The notes below the pieces were generated by a model that had not been told where the DNA came from, did no database searches, and saw nothing but the letters and a program-made list of their open reading frames with translations. The translations under genes and the position numbers were made by a program. DNA of 64,000 bases, from the NCBI GenBank assembly GCA_947375135.1, contig CANCER010000007.1, forward strand, positions 62,001 to 126,000. The letters run 5' to 3'. Below, piece by piece: positions 11,032 to 31,731 of this stretch. The stretch is from Comamonadaceae bacterium. GTDB taxonomy: Bacteria > Pseudomonadota > Gammaproteobacteria > Burkholderiales > Burkholderiaceae_C. The first letter of the stretch is position 1; the number at the start of each line of letters is the position of its first letter.

Positions 11032-11147
11032 TGTCACAAAAGATTGATCTTGAGCAAAAATGTATCACAGCGTGCGTGCGCCAAAGCCGAATGAAGAGGG
11101 TCGCTCAGTCTGGCATCAAACTTGCGCCGTTGCGTTCAGGTGTCACA
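11032..11147 (+). promoter_or_regulatory. Sigma-54 promoter with flanking TGTCACA heptamers
   Basis: TGGCAT-CAAAC-TTGC at 11111-11125 fits the sigma-54 -24/-12 consensus (TGGCAY-N5-TTGC) exactly, with GG and GC at the required 10-base spacing. The next gene starts at 11197. TGTCACA occurs at 11032-11038 (about 75 bases upstream, a normal enhancer position) and again at 11141-11147. The 309-base gap before the gene holds no other clear element. Confidence 0.75.
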
Positions 11148-11196
11148 CTGTGAGCACGCAAACTTCAAAAATAACGAGACGGAGATAGCCCCTGTG

Positions 11197-12381
11197 ATGC
11201 GAACCGGATTGAAACACTGGCTGCTGCTAGGCCTGGCCTGCACGCAGCAAATAGCCCTTGCCGCCAACTTGACCGTGGGCGTGCTGGGCGTGGAAGACGA
11301 TGCCCGCTACTGGCCCCGCCGGCTGGAGCAAAACTACCCCGGCCACCCTGGCGGCCGTCCCCTGGACGCGGCCACCCTGGCCGTGGATGAGACCGCGATG
11401 GAGATGGACGCCGCAGGCCACAAGCTCGTGGTGAAAAACTTCATGGCCGCCAGCAGCGCCGATTTGCCCAAGGCGTTGGCCCAACTCAAAGCGGCCCGCG
11501 TGCAATACGTGCTGCTGGACCTGCCCGATGCCGACCTCCAGACGGTGCTGGCCGGCGCAGCCACGGCGCTGGGGCCGGCGATTCTTTTCAATATCGGCTC
11601 CGGCGCCGATGTCTTGCGTGGCAGCGGCTGCGCAGCCAACCTGCTGCACACCTACCCCAGCGAGGCCATGCGCAGCGACGCGCTGGCGCAGTACCTGGCG
11701 GCCCGCAGCTGGAACCAGGCCCTGGTGCTGGCGGGTCCGCGGGCCCAGGACAAGCTGCAACTCGAGGCCTGGATGCGCGCAGCCAAGCGCTATGGCGTCA
11801 AGACCACGGCGTCCACCCCCTTCAAGCTATCCACCGACCCGCGTGAGCGCGAACTCAGCAATGTGCGGCTGCTGACCAAGGACAAGGGCCACGACGTCGT
11901 GGTGGTGGTGGACAGCGATGGCGAGTTTGCCCGCCGTGTTCCGTTCAATACCCAGTGGCCGCGCCCGGTGTTGGGCTCCAATGGCCTCACGGCCCTGGCC
12001 TGGCATCCGCAGTGGGATTTGAACGGCGGGCCCCAGTTGTCGCGCCGCTTTATGCGTGCAGCGCATCGGCCCATGACAGGGCAGGACTGGGCCACCTGGG
12101 CGGCGGTCAAGGCCATCGTGGCGGCACTCTCGGAGCGGCCCAAGGCCACGGTGGCAGAGCAACTGCAATTGCTGCGCAGCGGGCAGGTGGCGCTGGATGG
12201 CTTCAAGGGACCGCGCCTGACCTTTCGCGCATGGGATGGCCAGTTGCGCCAGCCCGTGTTTCTGGCCCACGGGGATGGGGTTGCTGCATTGGCGCCGTTT
12301 GACGGCGTGCTGCACCCCACGGAAGTACTGGACACGCTCGGTGTCGATGAAAAGGAGAGCGCATGTCGCCAACGCCCCTGA
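11197..12381 (+). CDS. PedA2-like ABC substrate-binding protein of the PQQ alcohol dehydrogenase system
   Basis: ATG 11197 is used (GACGGAG upstream; GTG 11194 is adjacent), giving 394 aa with a signal peptide ending near 'QQIALA'. The body begins 'ANLTVGVLGVEDDARYWPRR', typical of the periplasmic protein called the PQQ-dependent alcohol dehydrogenase system ABC substrate-binding protein, a Leu/Ile/Val-binding-like fold. In Pseudomonas putida the homologous PedA1A2BC transporter is needed for growth depending on rare-earth elements. It overlaps the permease gene by 19 bases and lies behind a sigma-54 promoter, so the two are one operon. The ATP-binding subunit is encoded 19 kb away at 30952. 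Confidence 0.85.
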   Translation: MRTGLKHWLLLGLACTQQIALAANLTVGVLGVEDDARYWPRRLEQNYPGHPGGRPLDAATLAVDETAMEMDAAGHKLVVKNFMAASSADLPKALAQLKAARVQYVLLDLPDADLQTVLAGAATALGPAILFNIGSGADVLRGSGCAANLLHTYPSEAMRSDALAQYLAARSWNQALVLAGPRAQDKLQLEAWMRAAKRYGVKTTASTPFKLSTDPRERELSNVRLLTKDKGHDVVVVVDSDGEFARRVPFNTQWPRPVLGSNGLTALAWHPQWDLNGGPQLSRRFMRAAHRPMTGQDWATWAAVKAIVAALSERPKATVAEQLQLLRSGQVALDGFKGPRLTFRAWDGQLRQPVFLAHGDGVAALAPFDGVLHPTEVLDTLGVDEKESACRQRP

Positions 12382-13175
12382 TGCTGCACCTGGCGCGCGC
12401 CCTGCGCGCCGTGGTCGGCCGTGAGATCCTGAAGTTCCTGCGCCAGCCCTCGCGCCTGGCCTCCTCCCTGGTGCGCCCGCTCCTGTGGTTCGTCGTTTTT
12501 TCGGCGGGTTTTCACAATGTGTTCGGCGTGGCCATCATCCCGCCCTATGAAACCTATGTGGAATACAAGGTCTACATGCTGCCCGGCCTGCTGGGCATGA
12601 TTGCCCTTTTCAACGGCATGCAAAGCTCGCTCTCCATGGTCTATGACCGCGAGATGGGGGTCATGCGCCTTTTGCTCACGGCGCCCCTGCCGCGCGGGTG
12701 GCTGTTGGCTTTCAAGCTGGTGGCATCCACCTCTTTGTCGCTGCTTCAGATGCTGGTGTTCCTGCTGATCGCCCTGGCCTTTGGCGTGGAGGCCGATCTG
12801 GCCCACTGGTTACTGGCGATTCCGGTGATGGCCCTGGGCGCGACCATGCTCGCGGCATTGGGCTTGATGCTGTCGGTCTATATCAAGCAGCTGGAAAACT
12901 TTGCCGGCACCATGAACTTTGTCATCTTCCCCATGTTCTTCATCAGCACGGCACTCTATCCGCTGTGGAAGGTGGAGGAGTCGGGCGCGCTGTGGCTGGT
13001 GCAGATTGCACAAGCCAACCCGTTTACCTATGTGGTGGAGCTGATCCGCTTTGCCCTGCAAGGCCAGTTCAATGCCCAAGCGCTGGCCGTGGTGCTGGTC
13101 GGCTGCATCGCCTTTTTCGGGCTGGCCTTGCGCGGCTACGACCCGCAGCGCGGCTGGATCAAACAGCGCGCTTAA
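12363..13175 (+). CDS. pedC: PedC-like ABC transporter permease (ABC-2 type)
   Basis: ATG 12363 has AAGGAG 8 bases upstream. The 270-aa protein is an ABC-2 type permease with six predicted spans, beginning with an amphipathic 'VVGREILKFLRQPSRLASSLVRPLLWFVVF' and containing 'VYDREMGVMRLLLTAPLPRGWLLAFK'. This matches the alcohol-dehydrogenase-associated PedC permease family. It should pair with the ATPase at 30952-31731. Fold type alone would suggest export, yet genetics in P. putida tie the system to lanthanide uptake. Confidence 0.85.
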   Translation: MSPTPLMLHLARALRAVVGREILKFLRQPSRLASSLVRPLLWFVVFSAGFHNVFGVAIIPPYETYVEYKVYMLPGLLGMIALFNGMQSSLSMVYDREMGVMRLLLTAPLPRGWLLAFKLVASTSLSLLQMLVFLLIALAFGVEADLAHWLLAIPVMALGATMLAALGLMLSVYIKQLENFAGTMNFVIFPMFFISTALYPLWKVEESGALWLVQIAQANPFTYVVELIRFALQGQFNAQALAVVLVGCIAFFGLALRGYDPQRGWIKQRA

Positions 13176-13186
13176 GGGGACGAGCC

Positions 13187-15301
13187 ATGTTGTGTGTGTT
13201 GCATCGTTTGCGTCTGTGCCTCCTGTGGCTAGCGCTGTTGTGCATGGCGCAGGTCCAGGCCGGCGTCATGACACGCGAAGCCATGGCCCAGGCCTTTCCC
13301 GCGCCGCTGGTGGTGGGGGAAAAAGACCGCGATGTGCCGGTGTGGCCCATCTTTGCCCAGGACCTCACCAGCACCGCCATCGTGGCCTATGCCTTCGAGT
13401 CAATTGACTTTGCCGCCATCCCCGGCTTTTCGGGCACGCCCTTCAATTTGCTGGTGGCGCTGGACAAGGATGGCAAGTTCATGGACGTCAAGGTGCTCAG
13501 CCACCACGAGCCGGTGTTTCTGGAAGGCCTGGGGCCACAGCCCTTGTTCAAGTTTGTCGAGCAATACCAGAATCTCTCGCTCAAACAAAGCATCAAGATC
13601 GGCCTCAACCATGCCGGTGACCAGAAGGCCAACAGTGCCAATGTGTACATCGATGGTGTGGCCAAGGCCACGGCGTCGGTGCGCATTCTGAACCAGAGCC
13701 TGCTGGCCGCCTCGCTCAAGGTGGCGCGCGCCAAGATGGGTTACAGCAATGGCGCCGACCCGGACCTGATCGCGCGCATACGCCCCGAGGTGTACCAGGC
13801 GCTGGACTGGCAGGGGCTGCTCAAGGCCGGGCTGGTAGGCAAGAAAATCTTCAAAAATTCCGAGGTGGACGAGGCTTTCAAGGGCACGGTGGGTGAGGGG
13901 CTGGATGACGAGGCGCGCCGTGCGCCGGATGCTCCTTTTGTCGAGCTGTACTTTGCCCACCTCAATGTGCCCAGCGCCGGGCGCAACCTGCTGCCGCCGC
14001 AGACCTGGGACTACATCCAGAAGCGTCTGGATCCGGGCGACCACGCGCTGCTGGTCATGGCCAAAGGCCGCTACGGCATCGTCAGTGACGACTTTCAGCG
14101 CGGTACCGTGCCGGACCGCCTGTCGCTCAAGCAGAACCAGTTGTCTCTGGAAATGCGTGATCTTGATCTGGACACCCGGCTCAATGTGCCGGACGATTTG
14201 CGCGACGCACAGTGGCGGGTGTTCCGCGTGATTGCGCCGGCCGCCCTGGACCCGTCGCTGCCGCTGGATTTCGAGCTGCTGGTGTCGCGCACCAAAGGCC
14301 AGTTCATGCCCGAGGTGGTGAACAAGAGCTTCGCCTTCCAGGCGCAGTTGCCCGACGACTATTTCCAGGCCGCCAGCTCGGACAGCAAGACCTGGGTGCT
14401 GAGCTGGACCTCGCGCTGGTGGGAGCTGGTGATTCTGGTGGCGGCGCTGGGGCTGCTTGCATGGGCCCTGGCCAAACCGCAGTGGCTCACGGCCAGCCCG
14501 CAGCGGCTCAACCGGTTTCGCACCGGCTACCTGCTGTTCACGCTGTTCTTTATCGGCTGGTATGCACAGGGACAGTTGTCGATTGTGAATCTGACGGCGG
14601 TCATTCAGGCGCTGGTCGCCAAACGCAGCCTGGCGTTTTTCATGTATGACCCGATGACGGTGCTGCTCTGGCTGTTTGTGGCCGTGACCTTCTTTGTCTG
14701 GGGTCGGGGTACCTTCTGCGGCTGGCTGTGCCCGTTCGGCGCCTTGCAGGAACTCATCAGCAAGGTCACACAGCGCCTGGGCCTCAAGGCCCTGCGTGTG
14801 TCCACCGCCCTGGACAAGCAGCTCAAGCGCGTGAAGTACGTCGTGCTGGCCGTGATTTTGATCTCCGCCCTCGTATCGGTCACCTGGACCGACCGCCTGG
14901 TGGAAGTGGAGCCCTTCAAGACCAGCATCACGCTGAACTTCGTGCGTGCCTGGCCCTTTGTGCTCTGGGCCGTAGCCACCGTGCTGCTGAGTTCCTTCTT
15001 CTACAAGGGCTATTGCCGCTACCTGTGTCCGCTGGGCGCGGGCATGGGCCTGCTGGGGCGCTTGCGCCGCTTTGACTGGATTGCACGCCGCAGCGAATGC
15101 GGCCAGCCCTGCCAGCGCTGCCGCAGCGACTGCGCGTACCAAGCCATTGAGAAGAGCGGCAAGATCGACTACGACGAATGCTTTCAGTGCATGGATTGCG
15201 TGGTCATTTACGAGAGCGAGACCTTGTGTGTGCCGCTCTACAACAACGCCCGCAAGACGGGTAGCGTGATCCCCATCGTCCCTGTGGGAGGTAAACCATG
15301 A
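13187..15301 (+). CDS. NosR/NirI-like membrane flavoprotein with polyferredoxin domain
   Basis: Start at ATG 13187 (AAGGGGACG upstream), 704 aa. After a signal segment comes a periplasmic FMN-binding domain (about residues 60-190) whose candidate flavin-attachment stretch reads 'DGVAKATAS', one residue off the usual D-x-x-[ST]-G-A-T pattern. A periplasmic middle region and about six membrane spans (from ~400) follow. Two Cys-rich cytoplasmic motifs of the NapH/NosR type ('FCGWLCPFGALQE', 'YCRYLCPLGAGMG') come next, then 'CGQPCQRCRSDC' and 'CFQCMDC' for Fe-S clusters. NosR passes electrons to nitrous oxide reductase, but no nosZ is near. Here it lies 11 bases behind pedC and overlaps an apbE gene by 4 bases, so it belongs to the PQQ/lanthanide operon; its electron partner is unknown. 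Confidence 0.8.
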   Translation: MLCVLHRLRLCLLWLALLCMAQVQAGVMTREAMAQAFPAPLVVGEKDRDVPVWPIFAQDLTSTAIVAYAFESIDFAAIPGFSGTPFNLLVALDKDGKFMDVKVLSHHEPVFLEGLGPQPLFKFVEQYQNLSLKQSIKIGLNHAGDQKANSANVYIDGVAKATASVRILNQSLLAASLKVARAKMGYSNGADPDLIARIRPEVYQALDWQGLLKAGLVGKKIFKNSEVDEAFKGTVGEGLDDEARRAPDAPFVELYFAHLNVPSAGRNLLPPQTWDYIQKRLDPGDHALLVMAKGRYGIVSDDFQRGTVPDRLSLKQNQLSLEMRDLDLDTRLNVPDDLRDAQWRVFRVIAPAALDPSLPLDFELLVSRTKGQFMPEVVNKSFAFQAQLPDDYFQAASSDSKTWVLSWTSRWWELVILVAALGLLAWALAKPQWLTASPQRLNRFRTGYLLFTLFFIGWYAQGQLSIVNLTAVIQALVAKRSLAFFMYDPMTVLLWLFVAVTFFVWGRGTFCGWLCPFGALQELISKVTQRLGLKALRVSTALDKQLKRVKYVVLAVILISALVSVTWTDRLVEVEPFKTSITLNFVRAWPFVLWAVATVLLSSFFYKGYCRYLCPLGAGMGLLGRLRRFDWIARRSECGQPCQRCRSDCAYQAIEKSGKIDYDECFQCMDCVVIYESETLCVPLYNNARKTGSVIPIVPVGGKP

Positions 15302-16302
15302 AACGCAGAACCTTGTTGCAACTTGGCCTGGGGCTGGGCGCCACTGCGGCGGCCGGCCTGGTGGCGTCCCGCACCCCGGGCAACGCGCCGCAGGACTTGC
15401 AGTGGGCCAGCCGCACCGTGACAGCCATGGGCACCGCCATGACGATGCAGGTAGCCCATGCGCAGACGGCGCAGGCGGTCAGCGCCCTGGATGCGGCCGT
15501 GGCCGAGATCCGCCACATGGAAGACCAGATGAGCCTGTTTCGCCCGGACAGCGCGATTTGCCAGCTCAACCGCACCGGCAGATTGGACAACCCCCACCCG
15601 GACATGCTCGCAATTTTGCGTGTGGCCCAGCAGGTGGCGCAGCGCAGCCGGGGCGCATTTGATGTCACGGTGCAGCCCCTGTGGCTGGCCTTTGAGAACG
15701 CCAAAAGCCTGGGGCGCTTGCCCACTGCACACGAGGTTCAGGCTGCACGCAGCCATGTGGGCTGGCGCGGCCTGCAGGTCGCGGACGATGTGGTGCGTCT
15801 GCAGCGTCCCGGTATGGGCATCACGCTCAACGGCATTGCCCAGGGCTATGCTGCCGACAAGGTCAAGGCGCGCCTGCAAAGCCTGGGCATTGAACACGCC
15901 CTCATCGACGCCGGCGAGTGGGCCGCCCTGGGCACACCGGCCCATGCCGGCGACTGGACTCTGGGTGTCGCCAATCCGCGTGATGCGCAGCAGCACGTGG
16001 CCGCCATTGCCCTGCAAGGGCGCTGCATGGCGACCTCGGCCGATGACCAGTGCATCTTCAGCCCCGACTTTGTCAACCACCATATCTTCGATCCGCGCAC
16101 CGGCTATTCGCCGCGTGACCTGTCCAGCGTAACGGTGATGGCCGGGGAGGCGGTGCTGGCGGATGCCATTACCAAGGTGTTCTTCATGGCCGGTTATGCG
16201 CAGGCGCTGCCGCTGGCCAAGGCCTGGGGGGTAGACGTCCTGGTGGTCGACAAACACGGGCGCTGGCAGGCCAGTGCCGGCGTGCCACTGCGCCAAGTCT
16301 GA
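15298..16302 (+). CDS. apbE: FAD:protein FMN transferase (ApbE family)
   Basis: The start ATG overlaps the stop of the NosR-like gene (ATGA), a sign of translational coupling. The 334-aa protein has a Tat/Sec-like N-terminus (MKRRTLLQLGLGLGATAAAG) and the ApbE core: 'MGTAMTMQV', 'LNGIAQGYAADKV', 'IDAGEW', 'ATSADD' and 'FDPRTGYSPRDLSSVTVM'. ApbE enzymes attach FMN to a Thr/Ser of FMN-binding domains in NosR, NqrB/C and RnfD/G. The obvious substrate is the NosR-like protein encoded immediately upstream. Confidence 0.9.
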   Translation: MKRRTLLQLGLGLGATAAAGLVASRTPGNAPQDLQWASRTVTAMGTAMTMQVAHAQTAQAVSALDAAVAEIRHMEDQMSLFRPDSAICQLNRTGRLDNPHPDMLAILRVAQQVAQRSRGAFDVTVQPLWLAFENAKSLGRLPTAHEVQAARSHVGWRGLQVADDVVRLQRPGMGITLNGIAQGYAADKVKARLQSLGIEHALIDAGEWAALGTPAHAGDWTLGVANPRDAQQHVAAIALQGRCMATSADDQCIFSPDFVNHHIFDPRTGYSPRDLSSVTVMAGEAVLADAITKVFFMAGYAQALPLAKAWGVDVLVVDKHGRWQASAGVPLRQV

Positions 16303-16336
16303 AGCGGCGCACTTCCGTTGTTTCAAAATGCAACAC

Positions 16337-16440: not shown

Positions 16441-16455
16441 TGGCACAGTCCTTGC
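16441..16455 (+). promoter_or_regulatory. Sigma-54 promoter of the PQQ dehydrogenase gene
   Basis: TGGCAC-AGTCC-TTGC matches the sigma-54 consensus at every conserved base with exact spacing. The dehydrogenase start codon is about 100 bases downstream, leaving a long leader. A dyad-symmetric site lies about 100 bases upstream. Confidence 0.85.
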
Positions 16456-16555: not shown

Positions 16556-18280
16556 GTGAAAAAGACATTATTCGCCCTACTCATGATGGCCGCCACAGCC
16601 CATGTGTCTGCGCAGGTTACCGACGCCATGATCGCCAATGACGCCACCGACAACAGCTCCGTTTTGAGCTGGGGTATGGGCACGCAAGGCCAGCGCTATT
16701 CGTCTCTGGACGCCGTCAACACCAAGACCGTGAAGAACCTGGTGCCTGTGTGGTCCATGTCTTTCGGCGGTGAAAAGCAGCGCGGCCAAGAGTCGCAACC
16801 CCTGGTTTACAACGGCAAGATGTTTGTCACCGCTTCCTACTCGCGTTTGTTCGCCGTGGATGTGAAGACCGGCCAGAAGCTCTGGAAGTATGAGCACCGC
16901 CTGCCAGAAGGCATCATGCCTTGCTGCGACGTGGTCAACCGTGGCGCCGCCCTGTACGGCAACCTCGTGATTTTCGGCACCCTGGACGCCCAATTGGTTG
17001 CCCTGGATATGGACACCGGCAAAGTGGTCTGGAAAGAAAAAGTGGACGACTACGCCGCTGGCTACAGCATGTCCGCTGCCCCCCTGATTGCTGAAGGCCT
17101 GCTGCTCACCGGCGTGTCCGGTGGCGAGTTCGGCGTGGTCGGCCGCGTGGAAGCACGCGACCCCAAGACCGGCAAGATGGTCTGGAGCCGTCCCGTGGTG
17201 GAAGGCCATATGGGCTACCTGAACGGCAAGGAAAACGGCATCTCCGGTACCACCAACGCCACCTGGCCGGGTGAGACATGGAAGACCGGAGGAGCCGCCA
17301 CCTGGCTCGGCGGCACCTATGACGCCAAGACCGGTCTGGCTTATTTCGGTACCGGCAACCCCGGCCCCTGGAACAGCCACGTGCGCAAGGGCGACAACCT
17401 GTACTCCACCTCCACTGTGGCGATTGATGTCAAGACCGGCAAGATTGTCTGGAGCTACCAAGGTACGCCCAACGACGCATGGGACTTTGACGGCGTCAAC
17501 GAGTTCATCACCTTCGACATGGACGGCAAGCGCATGGGCGGCAAGGCCGACCGCAACGGCTACTTCTACGTGATCGACGCTACCAGCGGCAAGCTGGCCA
17601 ACGCCTTCCCGTTCGTCAATGGCATCACCTGGGCCAAGGGCATCGACATCGCGTCGGGCCGTCCCAACTTCGTGCCTGAAAACCGTCCTGGCGATCCGGC
17701 AGCAGCCGGTGGCGACGGCAAGAAGGGCACTTCCGTGTTTGCATCCCCCGGCTTCCTGGGTGGCAAGAACCAGATGCCCATGGCCTACAGCCCCAAGAGC
17801 AAGATGTTCTTTGTGCCCTCCAACGAATGGGGCATGGACATCTGGAACGAGCCTATCAGCTATAAAAAGGGCGGCGCTTACCTGGGTGCAGGTTTCACCA
17901 TCAAGCCTTTGTATGACGACCACATTGGCTCCCTGCGTGCCTATGACCCCAAGACCGGCAAGATGGCCTGGGAAGTCAAGAACAACGCGCCTCTGTGGGG
18001 TGGCGTTCTGGCTACCGGCGGCGACCTGGTGTTCTGGGGCACGCCTGAAGGCTACCTGAAGGCAGCGGATGCCAAGACCGGCAAGGTGCTGTGGCAATTC
18101 CAGACCGGCTCCGGCGTGGTGGCTCCTCCCATCACTTGGACGCAAGACGGCGAGCAGTACATCAGCGTGGTTTCCGGCTGGGGCGGTGCCGTTCCGCTGT
18201 GGGGTGGCGAAGTGGCCAAGAAGGTCAATATGCTGGAACAAGGTGGTTCCGTGTGGACCTTCAAGCTGCCTAAGTCTTAA
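16556..18280 (+). CDS. PQQ-dependent alcohol dehydrogenase, lanthanide type (PedH/ExaF-like)
   Basis: GTG 16556 (AGGAG 8 bases upstream) begins a 574-aa periplasmic enzyme with signal [19 protein letters not shown]. The eight-bladed quinoprotein propeller is marked by repeated 'DxKTGK-xxW' tryptophan-docking motifs. C123-C124 form the vicinal disulfide. Metal/PQQ ligands are E191 ('GGEFG'), N268 ('TGNPG') and catalytic D310; D312 ('WDFDG') is the extra Asp that distinguishes rare-earth enzymes (XoxF, PedH, ExaF) from calcium enzymes, which have a small residue there. Substrate is probably a short or aromatic primary alcohol; methanol is not excluded. Electrons would pass to the cytochromes encoded at 18355 and 26049. 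No pqq synthesis genes are in the window. Confidence 0.93.
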
Positions 18281-19511: not shown

Positions 19512-19821
19512 ATGCCGGCAGCTTTGTGGCGAACCCTGCATCCCAGTGAACGCCCGGCATCGGCCGGGGGAAGGCAGTAGCGTAATGCTCCCGATTCCAC
19601 CCGTAGACCCGGTGAAGTGGAGCCGGAATTGGGGCTTTACGGGCATTCTCAAGCACCAATCCCTCCACACATTCTGTGAATGGAGCTGGGGATAACTCCG
19701 GGGTAACAAGGGTAAACCCGCGCCAGCATTGGGCTGGAGGCCGATGCCTCAAAATGAAGCAGAACGCTTTGCATCGGGATACCGAAGGTTTGAGCGTCCG
19801 CTGAGGCTGCGGCCAAACTTT
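19512..19821. other. Intergenic stretch without a convincing gene
   Basis: About 310 bases between the Sel1 and YHS genes. I looked for a pqqA-like peptide (Glu-x3-Tyr core) and for a promoter or hairpin and found none that stands out. Short frames on both strands lack ribosome sites and protein-like composition. Confidence 0.4.
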
Positions 19822-23689: not shown

Positions 23690-25876
23690 TCAACCCCAGA
23701 CATCCGTCGGCAGCAAGGCCTTTTTGCGGTAAATCGTGTTGCGCGAAACGCCTAGCATCTTGGCCGCAACCGAGACATTACCGCCACTCGAGCGCAGGGC
23801 CTGCGCCATGGCGTCCAGCGCTACATTTTCCAGTTTGGTGGATTCGAAGCGCAAGCCTGCAGGCTCCCGTATCGCTTCTTTGAGCGGTTCCGGGGCCACC
23901 TGGCTCATGTCGACTTGCGCCATCGTGGCGCGCGGCAACACCATGTCGGTCATTTGCACTTCGTCCATGAAGTCGTCGGGCAGGTGCTGCAACTGGATGT
24001 CCTCGGTACAGCCCGCCATCACGACGGCGGTGCGCAGCAGGTTGAAAAGCTGGCGGAAGTTGCCCGGCCAGGGGAACTGGTGAAACACCGACATCACTTC
24101 CGGCGAGATGCCCATGGGCGTGGCCGAATGGCAGACGCTGGCCAGAATCTTGCGCGTCACCACGTCCAGGTCGTGGCGTTCCCGCAGCGCAGGCAGGCGC
24201 ACTACCAGGCCATTGAGCCGGTAATACAAGTCCTCGCGGAACTCGCCGCGGGCAATCATTTCCTTCAGGTTCTTGTTGGTGGCGCAGATGACGGCCACAT
24301 CCACTTCCACCTCTTTCCCCGCACCCAAGGGGCTCACCTTGCGTTCCTGTAAGACGCGCAGCAGGCGCGCCTGCAAATGCTTGGGCATGTCGCCGATTTC
24401 ATCCAGGAACAGCGTGCCGCCATTGGCGAACAGCACCTTACCCACCGAACCCTTGCGTTTGGCGCCGGTGAACGCGCCTTCCTCGTAGCCGAACAGTTCC
24501 GACTCGATCAGTGTCTCGGGAATCGAGGCGCAGTTCACCGACACGAAGTTGTGGCCGGCGCGCGGCGAATCGTTGTGGATGGCCTGGGCCAGCAAGTCCT
24601 TGCCGGTGCCGGTCTCGCCCAGAATCATGACCGGAATGTCGCGCCCGCGAATCTTGTACAGCTTTTGAATGACGGCAGAAATCTGAGGGTCCCCGGTATC
24701 CAGGTAGCGCAGGCTGGACAGGGACTCCTTGTGCGAAACCGGCTTGGCGGCCAGCTGAGGCGGGACTTCGGGCGCGGGCAAGGGCGTTGCTGCGGCGGCT
24801 TTCTGCTGCTGGAAGTCCATGGCTTCAAAGGGGCGGCGCGCCTTCATGTCGCTCAGGCAGCATACCGTCACACCGTTGTGCAGACACAAGTTCACCGGGC
24901 GCGTGCCGGCCGCACGGATGCGGTCCAGAAACTGGGAAATGGCCGTGCCGAACAGCGAGGAAAACGTGTGGGCGCCCAGTGCGTTGATCGACAGGCCCAA
25001 CTGGAATTGGGCGCTGCGGTTGGCGGTGACAAAACGCCCTTCCGGATTGAAGACCGCCAGGCCCTCCATCAAGGTGCCCAGAAACTCTCCGCGCGTGTGG
25101 AAGCGCACGATGATTTCCTTGGCAAACACGTCGGCAAACATATGGTTTTCAATCATTTGCGCAGACATGCGGGCCAGGGCCATGGTGTGTTGGTGGTAGC
25201 TGAGGTGGTCGCCGGTTACGTCGAGCGCGCCTATCACTTTGCCAAAGGGGTCGAAGATCGGGGTGCAGGAGCAGGTCAGGAAGCGGTTGGCCTGCAAGAA
25301 GTGTTGCGCGCCGTGCACCACCACCGGGTGTTCCTCGGCCAGTGCAGTACCAATGGCGTTGGTGCCCTTGCTCCTTTCCGACCAGTCTACGCCTGGCTTC
25401 AAAGCCACTTGGGAGGCCTTTTCCAGGAAGTCGTCGTCGCCCAGCGAATGCAAAATCATGCCGCTGCGGGCCGTCAGCAGCACCATGCTTTGGGTGTTGG
25501 CGATCTGGTGGTACAGCGTTTCCATGATGGGTGCTGCGTGCTGGAACAGGAAACGGTTTTCCTCCAGCGCCTGGTTCACCTGGCCCCGCGCCGCAGTGGC
25601 GTAATCCGGAGCGTCCACCTCCCGCAAACCAAAGGCCTGAGAGCGTTGGTGCGATGTTCCTATCAGGGTCACATGCTCTGGGCTGTTCATAGACGGGCTG
25701 TTCAAAGGCCCGTATGCCTTGTGGCCCACTCCTGCGAGGCTGTGATGGTTCATTGTGTCTCCGTCAATCCTATCCGGCAGCCCTGTGGCGCCCGCTTCCA
25801 GATAACTGATGTCACCAAAAGGGGATGCGCCAACGGGGTCGCCGCTGTGATCTTTTGTCTCTGAAATTCTTGGCAT
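23690..25876 (-). CDS. AcoR-like sigma-54-dependent activator (GAF-AAA+-Fis)
   Basis: ATG 25876 has GGAG just upstream; 728 aa. The N-terminal half (about residues 90-380) is a GAF-type sensor like that of AcoR and other alcohol/acetoin activators ('SKGTNAIGTALAEEHPVVVHGAQHFL'). The AAA+ domain has Walker A GETGTGKD (420) and GAFTGA (467-472), the loop that contacts sigma-54, plus 'GGTLFLDEIGDM'. A Fis-type HTH ends the protein ('GGNVSVAAKMLGVSRNTIYRKKAL'). It has no receiver, so it probably senses a small ligand. It is divergent from the PedF cytochrome gene and sits among five sigma-54-type promoters, so I infer it controls the PQQ/lanthanide genes. Confidence 0.9.
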   Translation of the reverse strand: MPRISETKDHSGDPVGASPFGDISYLEAGATGLPDRIDGDTMNHHSLAGVGHKAYGPLNSPSMNSPEHVTLIGTSHQRSQAFGLREVDAPDYATAARGQVNQALEENRFLFQHAAPIMETLYHQIANTQSMVLLTARSGMILHSLGDDDFLEKASQVALKPGVDWSERSKGTNAIGTALAEEHPVVVHGAQHFLQANRFLTCSCTPIFDPFGKVIGALDVTGDHLSYHQHTMALARMSAQMIENHMFADVFAKEIIVRFHTRGEFLGTLMEGLAVFNPEGRFVTANRSAQFQLGLSINALGAHTFSSLFGTAISQFLDRIRAAGTRPVNLCLHNGVTVCCLSDMKARRPFEAMDFQQQKAAAATPLPAPEVPPQLAAKPVSHKESLSSLRYLDTGDPQISAVIQKLYKIRGRDIPVMILGETGTGKDLLAQAIHNDSPRAGHNFVSVNCASIPETLIESELFGYEEGAFTGAKRKGSVGKVLFANGGTLFLDEIGDMPKHLQARLLRVLQERKVSPLGAGKEVEVDVAVICATNKNLKEMIARGEFREDLYYRLNGLVVRLPALRERHDLDVVTRKILASVCHSATPMGISPEVMSVFHQFPWPGNFRQLFNLLRTAVVMAGCTEDIQLQHLPDDFMDEVQMTDMVLPRATMAQVDMSQVAPEPLKEAIREPAGLRFESTKLENVALDAMAQALRSSGGNVSVAAKMLGVSRNTIYRKKALLPTDVWG

Positions 25877-25892: not shown

Positions 25893-26003
25893 TGTAACAA
25901 CATTCAATCGGGTGCAATATGTAGGCCGTCTTGTGGGTTGGGGTTGCGTCAATTTGTGACATCGACATGCGGCAAGGCTGATTTTTGCTGGCGCGATATT
26001 TGC
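25893..26003 (+). promoter_or_regulatory. Sigma-54 promoter of pedF with TGTNACA sites
   Basis: TGGCGC-GATAT-TTGC at 25989-26003 matches sigma-54 -24/-12 spacing with one change from the best consensus (GC for AC). TGTAACA at 25893-25899 and TGTGACA at 25955-25961 lie upstream, in the intergenic region shared with the divergent activator gene, where they could also mediate autoregulation. Confidence 0.7.
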
Positions 26004-26048: not shown

Positions 26049-26537
26049 ATGAAATCATTCTTCCGTACACACCGCGTCTGGATCGCTGCCGGCCTGGCAG
26101 CCTGCATGTCACTGGGCAGCGTCGTTGCCACTGCGCATGGCGACGTGGTGCCGCAATCCGTAGACACCCACACGCTTCCCCAACTGGGCGACAAGTGGCT
26201 TGAAAACAATCCCTATTCCACCGGCGAAGCCCACAAGGAAGCGCTGCGCATCGGCACCTCGGCCTACAACCAGAACTGTGCGCGCTGCCACGGCCTGGAA
26301 GCGATTTCCGGCGGTGTCTCGCCCGATCTGCGCAAGCTCGACAACGACTGTATGAGCCTGGGCAGTGACGAGAAGAAGCTGGCCTGCTTTCAGGAAATCA
26401 ACGATTACTTTGTCTCCACCGTGCGCCGCGGCCGCGCCCGTGATGGCCGTGTCTACATGCCTCCGTTTGAAGGTATCCTGACGCAGGAAGCCATGTGGTC
26501 CATCAAGACCTATCTGGAAACACGGCGCGAACCCTGA
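26049..26537 (+). CDS. pedF: Cytochrome c-550, PedF-like
   Basis: The 162-aa protein has a signal segment (MKSFFRTHRVWIAAGLAACMSLGSVVATAHG), a haem site C77-A-R-C80-H81 and a second Cys pair C101/C113 ('NDCMSLGSDEKKLACF') typical of PedF-type cytochromes c-550, where it probably forms a disulfide. The likely axial Met is in 'YMPPFEG'. In P. putida PedF accepts electrons from the PQQ alcohol dehydrogenases. It starts behind a sigma-54 promoter and is followed after 63 bases by a MoxJ/XoxJ-like gene. Two candidate cytochrome acceptors (this and 18355) therefore exist for one dehydrogenase. Confidence 0.88.
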   Translation: MKSFFRTHRVWIAAGLAACMSLGSVVATAHGDVVPQSVDTHTLPQLGDKWLENNPYSTGEAHKEALRIGTSAYNQNCARCHGLEAISGGVSPDLRKLDNDCMSLGSDEKKLACFQEINDYFVSTVRRGRARDGRVYMPPFEGILTQEAMWSIKTYLETRREP

Positions 26538-26600: not shown

Positions 26601-27491
26601 ATGAATCGTCGTGTTAACCCGCAGGCCGCAGGCCTGATTCCCCGCCGTAGCTTTCTGGCCGCAGCCCTGCCGCTGGCCCTGGGCTTGCCTGCTTTGGTTC
26701 AGGCGCAGGAAAAGACGGCCCTGGAGAAAATCCGCGCCAGCGGGGTCCTGAAGATCGCGCTCTACAAAGACAACGAACCCTACTCCGACGGCAACATGGC
26801 CAAGATGACGGGCTTGGACGTGAGTCTGGGCCAGGCACTGGCCAAGGCGTTGCAACTAAGCCCCTCCTTCCTGCCCTTTGATGCCGGTGAGAACATGGGC
26901 GATGACCTGCGCAACATGGTCTGGAAGGGCCATTACCTGGGCTATGGGCCGGCGGACGTCATGCTGCACGTGCCGGTGGACAAGTACTTCATGGGCGAAA
27001 ACCGCCAAGCCTTTATCTTCGCGCCCTATGTGCGTGAACACCTGGTGGTGCTGTCGAATGCCAAGGAGCTGGACTCGGTGCGCAGTCCTGAAGAGTTGAA
27101 AGGCCGCAAAGTCACGGTGGAGCAGGGCACGGGTGCCGCCAGCGCCATGATGGGCTATGGCGGTGGCATGCTGAGCAGCAACGTGTCGATTTTCAAGAGC
27201 GGATTAGAGGCGGCCAGTACGGTGCTGATGGGCAAGGCCGATGCTGCCTTTGTCTCGCTGGCGCAAGCCGAGGCCGCCATTTTCCAGATGAAGCTGGACC
27301 GCAAGGACTGGTCCTTCTCCAAACTCAATATGCCCGGCGTGCCGCCCAACGGCTGGCCTTTGGGCATGGCCGTCAAGGCCGATAGCAAAGAACTCGCCAC
27401 GCTGCTGGACAATGCGCTGGATGCGATGCGCGCGAGCGGTGAGTTGTTGGCCATCTTCCAGTCACACGGCCTGACACTCGCAGCCCCCTGA
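26601..27491 (+). CDS. MoxJ/XoxJ-like periplasmic binding protein of quinoprotein dehydrogenases
   Basis: ATG 26601 follows CAGGAGA; 296 aa. A twin-Arg-like export signal ('IPRRSFLAAALPLALGLPALVQAQ') leads into a type 2 periplasmic-binding fold ('ALEKIRASGVLKIALYKDNEPYSDG', 'MTGLDVSLGQALAKAL', 'ADVMLHVPVDKYF'). It lacks a cognate ABC permease nearby. This is the family called quinoprotein dehydrogenase-associated putative substrate-binding protein (MoxJ-2/XoxJ), thought to help activate or mature the dehydrogenase. The PQQ enzyme and the PedF cytochrome gene next door support that role. Confidence 0.85.
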   Translation: MNRRVNPQAAGLIPRRSFLAAALPLALGLPALVQAQEKTALEKIRASGVLKIALYKDNEPYSDGNMAKMTGLDVSLGQALAKALQLSPSFLPFDAGENMGDDLRNMVWKGHYLGYGPADVMLHVPVDKYFMGENRQAFIFAPYVREHLVVLSNAKELDSVRSPEELKGRKVTVEQGTGAASAMMGYGGGMLSSNVSIFKSGLEAASTVLMGKADAAFVSLAQAEAAIFQMKLDRKDWSFSKLNMPGVPPNGWPLGMAVKADSKELATLLDNALDAMRASGELLAIFQSHGLTLAAP

Positions 27492-27499
27492 AGGAAATC

Positions 27500-27521: not shown

Positions 27522-27533
27522 CGCACTCTCCCT

Positions 27534-29813
27534 CTAGAACTTGGCTTGAACGCCCGCGTACAGCGTACGCGGCGCACCCTGGCTTCTGAACTGTTCGGCC
27601 GTGCCGGTGGTGAGGTTGTTGGTGGCCAGGGCGCCATAACCGGCGTACTTCACATCGAACAGGTTGTTGACACCCGCATACAGGTTGAACGACTTGTTCA
27701 CGCTGTGGTTGGCGTCCAGCTTGACGGTGGTGAAGCCCGGCACCTGGCCGTTCACGTCGGCGTTGTTTTCATCGCCGCGCGCAAAGGTCGGTCCCTGCGC
27801 CTGCAGCGTCAGACCCAGGCGCGTCTTGCCGTCCAGCGCGTAGCTCACACGCCCCTTGAACACCCACTGCGGAATGCCGGGGATGAAGTCGCCCGGTTTG
27901 ACGGCTACCGATGGCGCACTGTTGGCGGGGTTGGCCACCAGGAAGCTGGACTGGTAGGTGGCTTCGATCCAGTCGATATCGACGGCGTAATCCACCGAGG
28001 CAACGCGCCCTTCCAGCCCCCACTCCAGGCCCTGGCGCAGGGTCTGTCCCACATTGGAAAAGTAGCCGCTGCTCAGGCTGCTCTGGTTGAACAAAATGTC
28101 GTTGTCCAGTGCCGTGCGGTAGTAGGCGGCACGCCATTTCAGGCGGTTGCCGAAATTGCCGCGCATACCCACTTCGTAGGTTCTGGAGACCACGGGGCTC
28201 AGCTCCGGGTCGGCCCCAAAGGCATTGGGTACCCCGGAGCAGGGCACGGCCGGGTCGGAGCAGGCCAGTTCGATGGCCGAGGGGGTGCGAAAGCCCTCGG
28301 CGTAATTGGCAAAGGCAATCCAGTTCGGCGCCAGCAAATAGGTCAGCCCCAGAGAGGGGTTGAGGCGCTGGTACACATGGTCGCCGCTGACATCGGTAAG
28401 CGTGCCCGCCGCAACCGATGAGGTGCTGTCGCACAGGCCATTCGGGTCCACGCACGACTGGCCGGACAACTTGAGCGTGGCGTAGTCGTAGCGCGCCGAG
28501 GCGGTGATGGACAACTGATCCGTCGCATCCAAGGTGCTGGTGGCGAACAGGCCCAGACGCTGGTTGTCGGACTGCACATCGGCCTGCGGCAGGTAGCTGC
28601 CCACGCCGACCAGGCCACGGCTGGCATCCACCGTGGCGTGTTGGCCCCGGTTGTTGAACGCGGTGTGGCTGAACTCGGTGTTCAGGCCCAGGGTGGCCAC
28701 CTGGTTCATGGTCCAGAGCGGGTCGGTGTTGGTCCACTGGGCGTTGGCCCCCCCAATGGACTGGGTGTAGTGGGCCAGCAGGTTGGCGGCAGGGCAGTCG
28801 GCGATGGCCACGCAGCCCGCGTCATTGGTGGACGCGCTGACCAGACCATTGATATTGCTGTTGAGGATGTCGCGCGTCAGGCTGCGGGTGTAGAGGTTGC
28901 CCGCAAAACTGTTGGACGCGTCGGCTTCCCAATGCCCCTGCAGGTTGACGGTGGTGTTTTGCGTGGCCGCGTAGTCGGGGTGCGAATAGCCCTGCTGCGC
29001 GTTGTCCAGCATGGACAGCGGCACGGTCTGGTTGCCATAGAGCAGGTTGTCGGCTGCCAGCAGCGAGAGAGCGACTTCCCCGTGCTCGCCATATGCCGTG
29101 TACTTGCCGAAGAACTGGCGCAGTTTGCTTGGGTTGTTGGCAGCCCAGCCATCGTCGTTGGCAACCGATGCGGCGAAGTACAGATCGCTGTCATCGCCGT
29201 GGCTGCCGTGCTCTGCATCCACCGTGCGCCGTCCGAACGAGCCGATGCCGATGCCGCCCTGGCTGCCTTTCACGCTGTTGCCGTTTTTGCTGCTCAGGCT
29301 GAGGGCGCCGCCCAGGGTGTTGAGCCCATAGACCGGGTTGGAGCCGGGTATGACGGTGACCTTGTCGATCGCGAGTTGGGGCAGCAGGTCCCAGGACACC
29401 ACGTCACCAAAGGGTTCGTTGATGCGCATGCCATCCAGGAACACCGACAGACCTTGCGGCGTGCCCAGCGAGGGCGAGGCGGTAAAGCCGCGGTAATTCA
29501 GGTCCGCACTGAAGGGGTTGCCCTGGGTGTCATTGAGGCTCATGGAGCCCAGCGACTGGCTCAGGCGCTGGGTCAAATCCTGGGTGGGGGTGTCCAGTGC
29601 ATCGTGCGACAGGGTTTGCACATTGCCGGCAAACTTGCCGACTGGAATGCCGGTGCCCGCGACCGGTGTGGTGGCAATCACCGTCACCTCGGGCAGTGTG
29701 CTTGCCGGCTGCGCCGCGTTCTGGGCATTGACCGGAAAGCTGGCTGCCAAGGCCAGGGTTACGGGCAGCAGCGCATACCCTGCGCGCAGGGGTGGGGTCA
29801 ACTGAATTTTCAT
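27534..29813 (-). CDS. TonB-dependent outer-membrane receptor, candidate lanthanide-chelate receptor
   Basis: The 759-aa protein has a signal peptide ending at about 'FPVNAQ', a plug domain (about 40-165: 'LPEVTVIATTP', 'LNYRGFTASPSLGTPQGLSVFLDG', 'GSNPVYGLNTLGGALSL') and a 22-strand barrel ending in aromatic 'YAGVQAKF'. Such receptors import metal chelates using TonB energy. It lies 31 bases downstream of the PedB-like gene, in the same operon and under the same sigma-54 promoter. In Methylorubrum the receptor LutH imports lanthanide chelates beside a related ABC system, so a lanthanophore role is inferred. Iron or PQQ uptake is the alternative. Confidence 0.88.
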   Translation of the reverse strand: MKIQLTPPLRAGYALLPVTLALAASFPVNAQNAAQPASTLPEVTVIATTPVAGTGIPVGKFAGNVQTLSHDALDTPTQDLTQRLSQSLGSMSLNDTQGNPFSADLNYRGFTASPSLGTPQGLSVFLDGMRINEPFGDVVSWDLLPQLAIDKVTVIPGSNPVYGLNTLGGALSLSSKNGNSVKGSQGGIGIGSFGRRTVDAEHGSHGDDSDLYFAASVANDDGWAANNPSKLRQFFGKYTAYGEHGEVALSLLAADNLLYGNQTVPLSMLDNAQQGYSHPDYAATQNTTVNLQGHWEADASNSFAGNLYTRSLTRDILNSNINGLVSASTNDAGCVAIADCPAANLLAHYTQSIGGANAQWTNTDPLWTMNQVATLGLNTEFSHTAFNNRGQHATVDASRGLVGVGSYLPQADVQSDNQRLGLFATSTLDATDQLSITASARYDYATLKLSGQSCVDPNGLCDSTSSVAAGTLTDVSGDHVYQRLNPSLGLTYLLAPNWIAFANYAEGFRTPSAIELACSDPAVPCSGVPNAFGADPELSPVVSRTYEVGMRGNFGNRLKWRAAYYRTALDNDILFNQSSLSSGYFSNVGQTLRQGLEWGLEGRVASVDYAVDIDWIEATYQSSFLVANPANSAPSVAVKPGDFIPGIPQWVFKGRVSYALDGKTRLGLTLQAQGPTFARGDENNADVNGQVPGFTTVKLDANHSVNKSFNLYAGVNNLFDVKYAGYGALATNNLTTGTAEQFRSQGAPRTLYAGVQAKF

Positions 29814-29844
29814 ATTCGTCTGGATATCCGGAGGCTTGCGGCAG

Positions 29845-30816
29845 TCAGTTGGTCAGGATGCTGTGCGGTTCGCGCCCTACCGGCACGGTTTTCAGAGCCT
29901 TGCGGTTGGCGGTGTCGATGATGGTCATGTCGTCCGACTGGCCGTTGGCCACATACAGGCGTGTGCCCTCCTTGTTCAGGGCCAGGCCCCAGGCGCGCTT
30001 GCCTACCAGGGCCAGGCCGCGCACGGTGCGTGTGGCTACATCCACCTCTGCCACATGGTTGGCGCGTCCCAGCGCCACCCAAACGGTTTTGGCGTCGGCA
30101 CTCATCAGCATGCCCACTGGTGTGATGTCGGCGCTGCGCATGCCTTGCACCTCGAATTTCAGCGTCTGCTTGACCTTCATGGCGGCGGTGTCAATGATGC
30201 TGACGCTGGAGCCGAGTTCGTTGGTCACCCACAGCTCCGCCGCGTCGGGCGTGATGGCAAAGCGGCGCGGCCGCATGCCGGTCTTGACCTGGCCCACCGA
30301 CTTGCGCGTGGCCACGTCCACCTTGTAGACCGCATTGGCCACCTCGGAGGTGACGAACACATACTTGCCGTCAGCAGTTGCCAGCACGCCCTCGGGCTCG
30401 GCACCGGTCTTGACCGAGAACAGCGGCTTCTTGCTCGCCACGTCATAAGCGGCCAGTTGGCTGCCGTCTTCAATGGACACATAGGCGGTTTTGGAGTCCG
30501 GCGACAGGGCAAAAATCTCCGGGCTCTCGCCCGTGGGGATGCTGTCCACCAGCTTGCCCGCCACCACATCCACCACGCCGATCTGGTCGCTGTCGCCGCA
30601 GGCCGTCATGATTTGCTTCTTGTCGTGGGCCCAAGCCATGTGGCGCGGGCGCTGGCAGACTGCAACGGAGCGGATCACCTTGCCGTCGGCATCCATTTGC
30701 AGGATGGCGTTGTCCTTCTCGCTGCTGACGAATACATCGGCGTGTGCCTTGATGCTCTGCACTGCGAACAACAACGCCGCGCTGGCCAGTAGGACGCGGA
30801 AAAATCGGCTTTGCAT
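29845..30816 (-). CDS. pedB: PedB-like secreted beta-propeller (YVTN/NHL repeats), PQQ-associated
   Basis: ATG 30816 begins a 323-aa protein with signal MQSRFFRVLLASAALLFAVQSIKAHA. Seven propeller blades follow, visible as repeats such as 'DVFVSSEKDNAILQMDADGKVIRSV', 'KYVFVTSEVANAVYKVDVATRKSVGQVKTGMRPR' and 'LYVANGQSDDMTIIDTANRKALKTVPVGREPHSI'. It belongs to the PQQ-dependent catabolism-associated beta-propeller family (PedB), encoded with PedA1A2C transporters. A role as periplasmic metal or chelate handler is plausible but unproven. It is the first gene after a sigma-54 promoter and is divergent from the PedA1 ATPase gene. Confidence 0.88.
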   Translation of the reverse strand: MQSRFFRVLLASAALLFAVQSIKAHADVFVSSEKDNAILQMDADGKVIRSVAVCQRPRHMAWAHDKKQIMTACGDSDQIGVVDVVAGKLVDSIPTGESPEIFALSPDSKTAYVSIEDGSQLAAYDVASKKPLFSVKTGAEPEGVLATADGKYVFVTSEVANAVYKVDVATRKSVGQVKTGMRPRRFAITPDAAELWVTNELGSSVSIIDTAAMKVKQTLKFEVQGMRSADITPVGMLMSADAKTVWVALGRANHVAEVDVATRTVRGLALVGKRAWGLALNKEGTRLYVANGQSDDMTIIDTANRKALKTVPVGREPHSILTN

Positions 30817-30834
30817 GGTGGTCTCTTTCTTGTG

Positions 30835-30904
30835 TGTCACAGGGGGACAGGTTGTCATCAAAGTCGCAATATATATGCCACAGAGAGCCCTTGCGGGTGT
30901 CACA
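30835..30904 (-). promoter_or_regulatory. Sigma-54 promoter of pedB and the receptor gene
   Basis: On the minus strand TGGCAT-ATATA-TTGC (30880 down to 30866) is an exact -24/-12 element, about 50 bases before the pedB start. TGTCACA occurs upstream at 30898-30904, shared with the divergent pedA1 promoter, and again downstream at 30835-30841. Confidence 0.78.
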
Positions 30905-30911
30905 CCTTGGC

Positions 30912-30926
30912 AGGCACAGATCCTGC
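30912..30926 (+). promoter_or_regulatory. Candidate sigma-54 promoter of pedA1
   Basis: AGGCAC-AGATC-CTGC keeps GG and GC at the correct 10-base spacing but departs from consensus at two outer positions. It lies 26 bases before the pedA1 start, close enough to make the leader very short. TGTCACA at 30898-30904 sits immediately upstream. Confidence 0.5.
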
Positions 30927-30951
30927 TGCGCAAGGGTAGACTCCAACGCCT

Positions 30952-31731
30952 ATGACGCACCCTCAAACAACCCACCAAGCCCCCCCGGTGCTGATTGCCA
31001 CCGCGCTGCAAAAATCCTACGGGGCCAAGGTGGCGCTCCAGTCGGTCAGCATGTCGCTGTACCCCGGGCAGTTCGTCGCGCTGCTGGGGCCTAACGGGGC
31101 CGGCAAGTCCACGCTGGTGCAATTGCTCAGCGGGCTTTTTGTGCCGGATAAGGGCGATTTGTCGGTGCTGGGTTTTGATATCCGCAAGAACGCGCCCAAG
31201 GCACTGGCCGGGCTGGGCGTGGTGTTCCAGCAGTCCTCGCTGGACCTGGACCTGAGCATCCGCGCCAACCTGCTGTTCCACACCGATCTGCACGGCATGG
31301 CGCGCAGGACGGCGCTGGAAAGAATCCAGACCGGGCTGGAGCAGCATGGTCTGCAAGGCCAGGAGGGTGTGGCCGTGCGCGCGCTGTCCGGCGGCAACCG
31401 GCGCAAGGTGGAGCTGATTCGCGCGCTCTTGCACCAGCCGAAATTTTTGTTGATGGACGAGGCCACCGTGGGCTTGGACCCGGCCTCGCGCCATGACCTG
31501 ATGCGCTCGGTGGAGGCCTTGGCAAAGGCCGGTGAAGTGGCGGTGCTCTGGGCCACGCACCTGGTAGACGAAGTGGCCAACGCCGACCGCGTGCTGGTGC
31601 TCAACCAGGGCGGGATCGTGTTTGATGGCTTGCCCTCCGAACTCATCGCGCAGTCCGGCGGGTTGAGTCTGGAGCAGGCGTTCCTCAAGTTGTGTCCGCA
31701 GGCTTCGGGCAAGGGGCGCGTTGCGGCCTGA
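30952..31731 (+). CDS. pedA1: PedA1-like ABC transporter ATP-binding protein of the PQQ alcohol dehydrogenase system
   Basis: This 259-aa ATPase has Walker A 'GPNGAGKST', signature 'LSGGNRRKVEL', Walker B 'FLLMDEAT' and a switch His in 'WATHLVDEV'. It matches the ABC-2-type ATPase family named for the PQQ-dependent alcohol dehydrogenase system. It should drive the PedC-like permease (12363) with the PedA2-like binding protein (11197), although those genes are 18 kb away. It is divergent from pedB and shares its regulatory region. Ribosome-site match is poor (AAGGG is 17 bases away). Confidence 0.88.
   Translation: MTHPQTTHQAPPVLIATALQKSYGAKVALQSVSMSLYPGQFVALLGPNGAGKSTLVQLLSGLFVPDKGDLSVLGFDIRKNAPKALAGLGVVFQQSSLDLDLSIRANLLFHTDLHGMARRTALERIQTGLEQHGLQGQEGVAVRALSGGNRRKVELIRALLHQPKFLLMDEATVGLDPASRHDLMRSVEALAKAGEVAVLWATHLVDEVANADRVLVLNQGGIVFDGLPSELIAQSGGLSLEQAFLKLCPQASGKGRVAA

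Follow-up and report, generated by a model that had tools for sequence, protein, structure and literature searches.

The 64,000-nucleotide stretch studied here, called the window, covers positions 62001-126000 of contig C7 in the draft genome of a Comamonadaceae bacterium (4.22 Mb, 89 contigs, 89.9% complete). It contains a putative system for lanthanide- and pyrroloquinoline quinone (PQQ)-dependent alcohol oxidation. Homologues of the PedA1A2BC importer, a PedH-like dehydrogenase, cytochromes, a NosR-ApbE pair, a TonB-dependent receptor and a sigma-54-dependent activator are encoded in two blocks, at 11-19.5 kb and 23.7-31.7 kb. Families were assigned by NCBIfam and Pfam profile searches of the window open reading frames (ORFs) against curated cut-offs. 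An initial annotation had described a split lanthanide/PQQ alcohol-oxidation locus; family matches, motifs and promoter-like sites now support this description, with the function predicted. The features of the island are as follows.

11111-11125, plus strand: sigma-54-type -24/-12 site before the pedA1 operon, TGGCATCAAACTTGC, an exact match to TGGCRYN5TTGC
11197-12381, plus strand: PedA1-like periplasmic binding protein (TIGR03863 PQQ_ABC_bind, 415.4 bits; cut-off 413.6)
12363-13175, plus strand: PedC-like ABC-2 permease (TIGR03861, 351.4 bits; cut-off 241.35)
about 13187-15301, plus strand: NosR-type membrane flavo-iron-sulfur protein with FMN_bind, Fer4_5 motifs and C-terminal cysteine clusters
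15298-16302, plus strand: ApbE flavin transferase (PF02424, 219.8 bits)
16441-16455, plus strand: sigma-54-type site before the dehydrogenase gene (TGGCRYN5TTGC)
16556-18280, plus strand: PedH-like PQQ alcohol dehydrogenase (TIGR03075, 749.7 bits; cut-off 480.05)
18355-18684, plus strand: small c-type cytochrome (CLSCH; PF00034, 5.2e-8)
18681-19511, plus strand: Sel1-repeat protein (PF08238), overlapping the small cytochrome gene
23690-25876, minus strand: sigma-54-dependent activator with GAF, AAA+ and Fis helix-turn-helix domains (PF01590; PF00158, 223.9 bits; PF02954), divergent from pedF
25989-26003, plus strand: sigma-54-type site before pedF (TGGCRYN5TTGC)
26049-26537, plus strand: PedF cytochrome c550 (TIGR04494, 203.1 bits; cut-off 122)
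26601-27491, plus strand: periplasmic solute-binding protein beside pedF, in the position of MoxJ/XoxJ (PF00497 SBP_bac_3, 1.8e-7)
27534-29813, minus strand: TonB-dependent receptor of a quinoprotein-associated family distinct from PqqU (PF00593/PF07715)
29848-30819, minus strand: PedA2-like beta-propeller (TIGR03866 PQQ_ABC_repeats, 278.3 bits; cut-off 287.3)
30866-30880, minus strand: sigma-54-type site before the pedA2-receptor unit (TGGCRYN5TTGC)
30952-31731, plus strand: PedB-like ATPase (TIGR03864 PQQ_ABC_ATP, 307.8 bits; cut-off 302.25)

Three of the four importer subunits (PedA1, PedC and PedB) exceed the PQQ_ABC cut-offs, which bears out their earlier placement in the Ped families. 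The propeller, formerly placed at 29845, is PedA2-like by its top match; its gene lies on the minus strand and its score falls below the cut-off. pedA2 is located upstream of the receptor gene on the same strand, and the plus-strand ORF at this site had no family match. In the first block, the start of pedC overlaps the end of pedA1. PedA1 homologues (TIGR03863 above 300 bits) were present in 48 of 200 scanned family genomes, including the window genome. A further 48 A1 loci, two of them from one genome, were fetched and mapped by tblastn (mapped loci carry L numbers). All four importer genes lie within 8 kb in 41 of them. The split is real in the window but not general; it is a local feature, since most relatives keep the four genes together. 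Six loci missing at least one importer gene (L048, L054, L061, L068, L070 and L086) are situated at or near contig ends. L082 (genome G142) has no ATPase or permease match in its 20-kb stretch and possibly is split too. Across the phylum, PedC-family genes were found in 41 of 299 sampled genomes, and 20 of these loci were fetched.

The dehydrogenase carries the motif WDFDGVNE from codon 309. Rare-earth enzymes have an extra Asp two residues past the catalytic Asp, and this residue is present (codon 17489-17491), as had been recognised earlier. GGEFG, GTGNP and a vicinal cysteine pair in PCCD are retained. The best PDB matches, 6zcv (785.9 bits) and 6zcw (785.4 bits), are described as quinoprotein ethanol dehydrogenase; we take both to be PedH. 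Dehydrogenase matches of at least 60% identity have the DxD form wherever the pattern matched. L096 reads WDFDA, and L135 has a cut fragment in which the pattern was unmatched. The WDFSGNN form was seen only among matches of 51-52% identity. The genome encodes a second PQQ dehydrogenase (C10 112456-113922), the sole other full-length PF01011 match, which is 33% identical to the window enzyme.

The identification of PedF holds, with a TIGR04494 score above the cut-off. The small cytochrome gene between the dehydrogenase and Sel1 genes had not been named before; L044, L048 and L053 likewise have Sel1-type matches close to the dehydrogenase. The protein beside PedF had been labelled MoxJ/XoxJ-like. 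MoxJ family models and XoxJ structures exist in the databases. No MoxJ model was among its NCBIfam matches and no XoxJ among its PDB matches, so that a solute-binding protein of the SBP_bac_3 family adjoining PedF is what remains of this label. Other candidate carriers occur elsewhere: in Variovorax boronicumulans, a gene for a high-potential iron-sulfur protein (HiPIP; L134:14952-15293) adjoins a PQQ dehydrogenase gene, and eight Burkholderia/Paraburkholderia loci have HiPIP-like matches close to PQQ dehydrogenases. A HiPIP-type protein as an alternative electron carrier is possible.

Shared promoters had been claimed without evidence. The exact element TGGCRYN5TTGC occurs at seven sites in the 64 kb against 2.14 expected, and none of 100 shuffles reached seven; these statistics are post hoc, since the exact pattern was chosen in the light of a less strict search, and the relatives provide the better test. 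The looser search, with two mismatches, was uninformative alone (68 sites, 62 expected). Four of the seven sites precede, in the correct orientation, pedA1, the dehydrogenase gene, pedF and the pedA2-receptor unit. Relatives were scored for an element within 300 bases upstream on the same strand, a condition to which 0.8% of random 300-base stretches conform. Of 37 distinct dehydrogenase loci (the duplicates L059 and L200 counted once), 27 have the element before the gene; for PedF the figure is 13 of 27, and for the TonB receptor 2 of 100. It was not found on this strand before PedC (0/69), NosR (0/26), ApbE (0/15), MoxJ (0/25), the ATPase (0/65) or the activator (0/27). On the opposite strand, used as a control, 12 of 27 activator genes are preceded by it because their upstream region is shared with the divergent pedF; NosR (1/26), PedF (1/27) and A2 (1/70) had one case each and the others none. 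Since sites precede four units, recur before the dehydrogenase and PedF genes of relatives and lie beside a sigma-54 activator, the four units across both blocks probably form one split sigma-54 regulon. The claim of shared promoters thereby has sequence support. The functional unity proposed at the outset is strengthened by the conserved sites, and we still infer it.

The NosR-ApbE pair of the initial annotation is present. With the start placed by choice at ATG 13187, nosR begins 11 bases past pedC, and the start of apbE overlaps the stop of nosR by 4 bases. The FMN_bind match is weak (21.8-21.9; cut-off 22). The threonine-bearing DGVAKATAS is retained in the protein, as are the two CxxxCP motifs and the cysteine clusters near the C-terminus. 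Its motifs correspond to a NapH-like flavinylated relay, with an FMN_bind domain including the threonine, Fer4_5 and ApbE nearby, and flavinylation is predicted. According to the available text of PMC8238504, NosR-type (NapH-like) flavinylated clusters with an ExaA-type alcohol oxidase occur in 172 genomes, and the NosR-type protein was proposed to drain the oxidase. The initial annotation had noted that ped and lut are not known to include a NosR-ApbE pair. What is added here is the link of NosR-ApbE to a lanthanide importer, by its place in the PedA1-PedC operon and by recurrence with PedABC and PedF; the association of NosR with exaA itself is not new. NosR together with PedABC did not appear in the titles and abstract openings listed on NosR with lanthanide, ApbE, PQQ or flavinylation, a partial coverage of the literature, nor does the available text of PMC12052999 and PMC11996626 contain the NosR and Ped combination.

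In the family, matches to the window NosR exceed 500 bits for 12 genes, spread over 11 of the 200 genomes. Eight of them, the window gene counted, have a PQQ dehydrogenase, PedABC, PedF or a MoxJ-type gene in the fetched stretch. PedA1 is found in 8 of the 11 genomes with this NosR subtype and in 40 of the 189 without it (Fisher p 0.0006, relatedness uncorrected). Three of the 20 PedC loci sampled across the phylum (L104, L109 and L118) carry NosR with PedF, a solute-binding protein and a PedH-like dehydrogenase. A plasmid protein search with NosR gave 182 records; of the 30 listed, seven loci were examined, and ped/PQQ genes were present in six, those of V. boronicumulans, V. paradoxus, Aquabacterium olei, Methylorubrum extorquens (pME152), Sulfitobacter and Shinella. 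Of the 14 PQQ-associated loci from the two NosR-led searches, 9 have PedF adjoining NosR (window, L096, L097, L098, L135, L136, L138, L139 and L140). NosR therefore does not simply take the place of the cytochrome.

A tree was calculated from 31 proteins, with nine family NosR as the canonical set, one of which (L125) was shown beside NosZ. The nine nosZ-type proteins form one clade (100/100), and the window NosR does not group with these denitrification proteins. The other 22 rows except L104 form a second clade (98/99) that includes the window NosR. The NCBIfam cut-off for NosR was rejected as a discriminator: the nosZ-linked NosR of L125 and the window NosR both score 592.9 bits, below 1000. 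The L125 protein (L125:6237-8699) is thus missed by the model NF046105, whose cut-off is far above its score.

The direction of electron flow through NosR is debatable. Low flavin potentials make a flow from PQQH2 to NosR doubtful. NosR could instead be a reductive arm that sends electrons outward, to strip Fe(III) from a metal chelator or to keep a periplasmic partner reduced. NosR is thought to give electrons to N2O reductase and its relatives serve other reductases, by the available text of PMC12052999 and PMC8238504; together with the flavin potentials, this makes the outward role a serious rival. The frequent presence of PedF beside NosR and the inhibition of lanthanum (La)-dependent growth of a P. 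putida mutant by excess iron, described in the accessible part of PMC12997753, point in the same direction, whereas no electron acceptor was identified. The outward role has a real, though minority, chance of being right and is compatible with the rest of the explanation favoured below.

Alternatively, NosR-ApbE may be unrelated to alcohol oxidation, as a bystander or as a stray gene of denitrification. Four of the 12 NosR-subtype family genes (L092-L095) are without a PQQ gene in the fetched stretch, and ped/PQQ genes were not found at the plasmid locus of Azoarcus KH32C that carries NosR. Against this, the pair stands between pedC and the dehydrogenase gene with overlapping or near-touching genes, it recurs in varied layouts with the dehydrogenase, PedF or PedABC in Variovorax, Aquabacterium, Methylorubrum, Sulfitobacter and Shinella, the window protein stands apart from the nosZ-type clade, and the exaA association is published (PMC8238504, available text). 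The bystander explanation is unlikely.

The TonB-dependent receptor, correctly recognised before, might import PQQ. At E ≤1e-10 it matches nothing in the PDB but YncD/PqqU of E. coli (6v81 and 9c4o), and pqqB, pqqC and pqqE were not found in the genome. In E. coli, pqqU adjoins yncE, and the window propeller also scores with YncE, so that the receptor-propeller pair could be the counterpart of pqqU-yncE. The binding signature of PqqU is Y/F/W99, R304 and R365, as given in the accessible part of PMC12124388. The residues aligned to Y99, R304 and R365 in the window receptor are L, L and H. The receptor has 77.8 bits to PqqU but 221-483 bits to receptors of its own type in other ped/lut-like loci. 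Among 55 mapped loci, a PqqU-type receptor with signature occurs in 6 and a window-type receptor in 16; L082 and L085 hold both types in one locus. Furthermore, a signature-bearing PqqU candidate is encoded on another contig, C27.

The neighbourhood of the receptor was analysed with a 14-member alignment for the best 80 of at least 587 matches over the genomes; most of the query set came from PQQ loci, and the counts therefore describe an association and not an unbiased rate. Flanking genes include pqqE in 38 of these 80 loci, where PQQ import would be needless, a PQQ dehydrogenase in 34 and PqqU in 12. The flanks of 55 of the 80 contain one or more of A1, PedC, dehydrogenase, PedF, MoxJ, pqqB and pqqE; the number is 59 if beta-propeller matches of about 30% identity are included. 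The same receptor type was found in 5 of the 20 PedC loci sampled across the phylum. PQQ as the substrate was rejected on the signature, the higher similarity to ped/lut-like receptors and the many flanks with pqqE, and it is improbable.

A lanthanide-chelate receptor is favoured instead, because the PqqU signature is lacking and a relative stands beside a lanmodulin-like gene in L107. In this locus, from another class, a window-type receptor (252 bits) adjoins an ORF with four EF-hands, two of which start with DPDNDGTL, a feature shared with lanmodulin. The four-EF-hand protein gene (L107:13352-13786) lies between the PedABC genes and the receptor gene. The closest receptor relative among the matches analysed is L141 (67% identity), where PqqU is encoded between the ATPase and the A2-receptor pair. 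A contig titled Chitinophaga pinensis, from a metagenome-assembled genome, encodes a receptor 54% identical to that of the window (L144); this contig is perhaps mislabelled or misbinned.

PQQ would probably be supplied from outside. Profile searches did not find PqqB, PqqC or PqqE in the 89.9%-complete draft; control genomes gave no PqqC match either, so the absence of PqqC is weak alone. The PqqU candidate (C27 32880-34862; L120:6872-9082, minus strand) has F99, R304 and R365. Family genomes were searched with thresholds of E ≤1e-60 for PqqE and E ≤1e-90 for PqqU-type receptors, none of which exceeded the NCBIfam cut-off of 1200. PqqE was detected in 47 of 200 genomes and PqqU-type receptors in 112; the signature was inspected in a subset of ORFs, of which L218 lacks it. 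Among the 48 A1-positive genomes, 32 have PqqE and 15 of the remaining 16 a PqqU-type receptor, which makes 47 of 48 with one or the other. The exception is a 65%-complete draft. In the available text of PMC12124388, pqqU stands beside pqq genes in four Burkholderiales genomes. PQQ is probably scavenged via a PqqU encoded elsewhere in the genome. The pattern of profile matches suggests that PQQ scavenging sustains a good part of this type of alcohol oxidation across the family.

Gene content, motifs, sites, conservation and the pqq genes not found in the draft are consistent with the following scheme, in which regulation, metal use, receptor substrate and electron route are predicted. The activator would switch on four units: pedA1-pedC-nosR-apbE, dehydrogenase-cytochrome-Sel1, pedF with the solute-binding protein gene, and pedA2-receptor. 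A lanthanide complex may pass the outer membrane through the receptor and would then be carried further inward by PedA1A2BC. Loaded with lanthanide and with PQQ supplied by PqqU, the PedH-like enzyme would oxidise alcohols. Its electrons may pass to PedF and/or the small cytochrome and on to the respiratory chain. The NosR-type protein, flavinylated by ApbE, would act as a membrane flavin/iron-sulfur relay between the periplasmic chain and the quinone or a cytoplasmic pool. With a probability of roughly 0.7, the island thus encodes a split, co-regulated, lanthanide-dependent periplasmic alcohol oxidation.

Several observations weigh against this scheme or its parts. In relatives, the element precedes A1 in 0 of 68 loci and A2 in only 5 of 70, L141 included; the pedA1 site looks specific to the split arrangement. 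pedB is preceded solely by a two-mismatch site (30912). The propeller score is slightly below its cut-off, with TIGR03866 nevertheless as the top match. NosR is dispensable to the importer because 44 of the 48 fetched A1 loci are without it; L046, L050, L087 and L090 have it. In the 98/99 clade, rows with and without PQQ neighbours are intermixed, and the PQQ-linked NosR of L104, flagged for its long branch, is placed on the side of the nosZ-type proteins. The L092-L095 genes and the low flavin potentials likewise count here. Furthermore, 25 of the best 80 receptor loci, several on short contigs, are without a PQQ gene save propeller matches.

That the island runs on calcium despite the Asp, with the ABC system importing something else such as PQQ, is very unlikely: the TIGR names merely say 'PQQ-dependent alcohol dehydrogenase system' transporter and no window ORF of 80-400 residues had two or more EF-hand pattern matches, whereas PedA1A2BC is essential for La-dependent growth of P. 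putida at low La and the lut genes for that of M. extorquens, by the available text of PMC6839425 and PMC7391723, and the closely related dehydrogenases share the DxD form described above.

A wider reading goes beyond the island. In several Pseudomonadota classes, a flavinylated NosR-type relay may belong integrally to lanthanide import and to alcohol oxidation of the PedH type, with metal uptake, enzyme and redox arm here in one sigma-54 regulon of a cell that imports both metal and PQQ. This generalisation is tentative. The locus itself narrows one group of NosR-type flavoproteins, whose role was unassigned, towards lanthanide/PQQ systems.

The locus appears to be a variant of the ped and lut systems, and the earlier claim that its layout differs from both was upheld. 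The ped system of P. putida KT2440 likewise has all four importer families, PedF and a PedH-like dehydrogenase. Control there is by the two-component system PedS2/PedR2, in contrast to the sigma-54 activator of the window. The window has in addition a TonB receptor and NosR-ApbE, whereas KT2440 is without a LutH homologue according to the available text of PMC6839425 and PMC12997753. Further differences are the two blocks and the lack of pqqB, pqqC and pqqE matches in this draft. A TonB receptor and a sigma-54 activator alongside the same importer make this a testable non-methylotroph arrangement, in comparison with P. putida and its lack of a recognised LutH-type receptor. The lut system of M. 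extorquens AM1 shares the ABC importer and a TonB receptor; the likeness of the window receptor goes via homology to the receptor of the lut-like locus L107, not via the LutH sequence. Unlike lut, the window has a PedH-like enzyme in place of XoxF, PedF, a sigma-54 activator and NosR-ApbE, and no lanmodulin-like ORF was found in it.

The NapH-like exaA clusters have an FMN-domain Fer4_5 membrane protein, ApbE and an ExaA-type dehydrogenase in common with the island. In comparison with their published description (PMC8238504, available text), the pair is located here in a PedA1-PedC operon, PedF is retained and the dehydrogenase is of the lanthanide type. The PqqU import system (PMC12124388, accessible part) has its counterpart in the signature-bearing candidate elsewhere in the genome and in PqqU within several related loci, including L141; the window receptor belongs to another family. 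Sigma-54 control of a PQQ alcohol dehydrogenase, as proposed here, has a precedent in exaA of Azospirillum brasilense, cited in the available text of PMC6115532. A LuxR-type regulator takes part there, in contrast to the adjacent GAF/AAA+ enhancer-binding protein of the window.

The gap between the blocks holds icd (20857-23220; PF03971, 1252 bits), in agreement with the split described initially. A YHS-domain ORF (19729-20124, plus strand) also lies in the gap. Beside icd, an ORF at 20144-20821 (minus strand), the putative dead gene of the initial annotation, had no family match in the profile searches and no tblastn match in the mapped relative loci. Downstream of the island, a block of lower G+C content (36847-45532) carries plus-strand genes for a sugar-type ABC transporter, two GFO/IDH/MocA oxidoreductases and a xylose-isomerase-like protein. 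These families suggest a cluster for the catabolism of a sugar or polyol.

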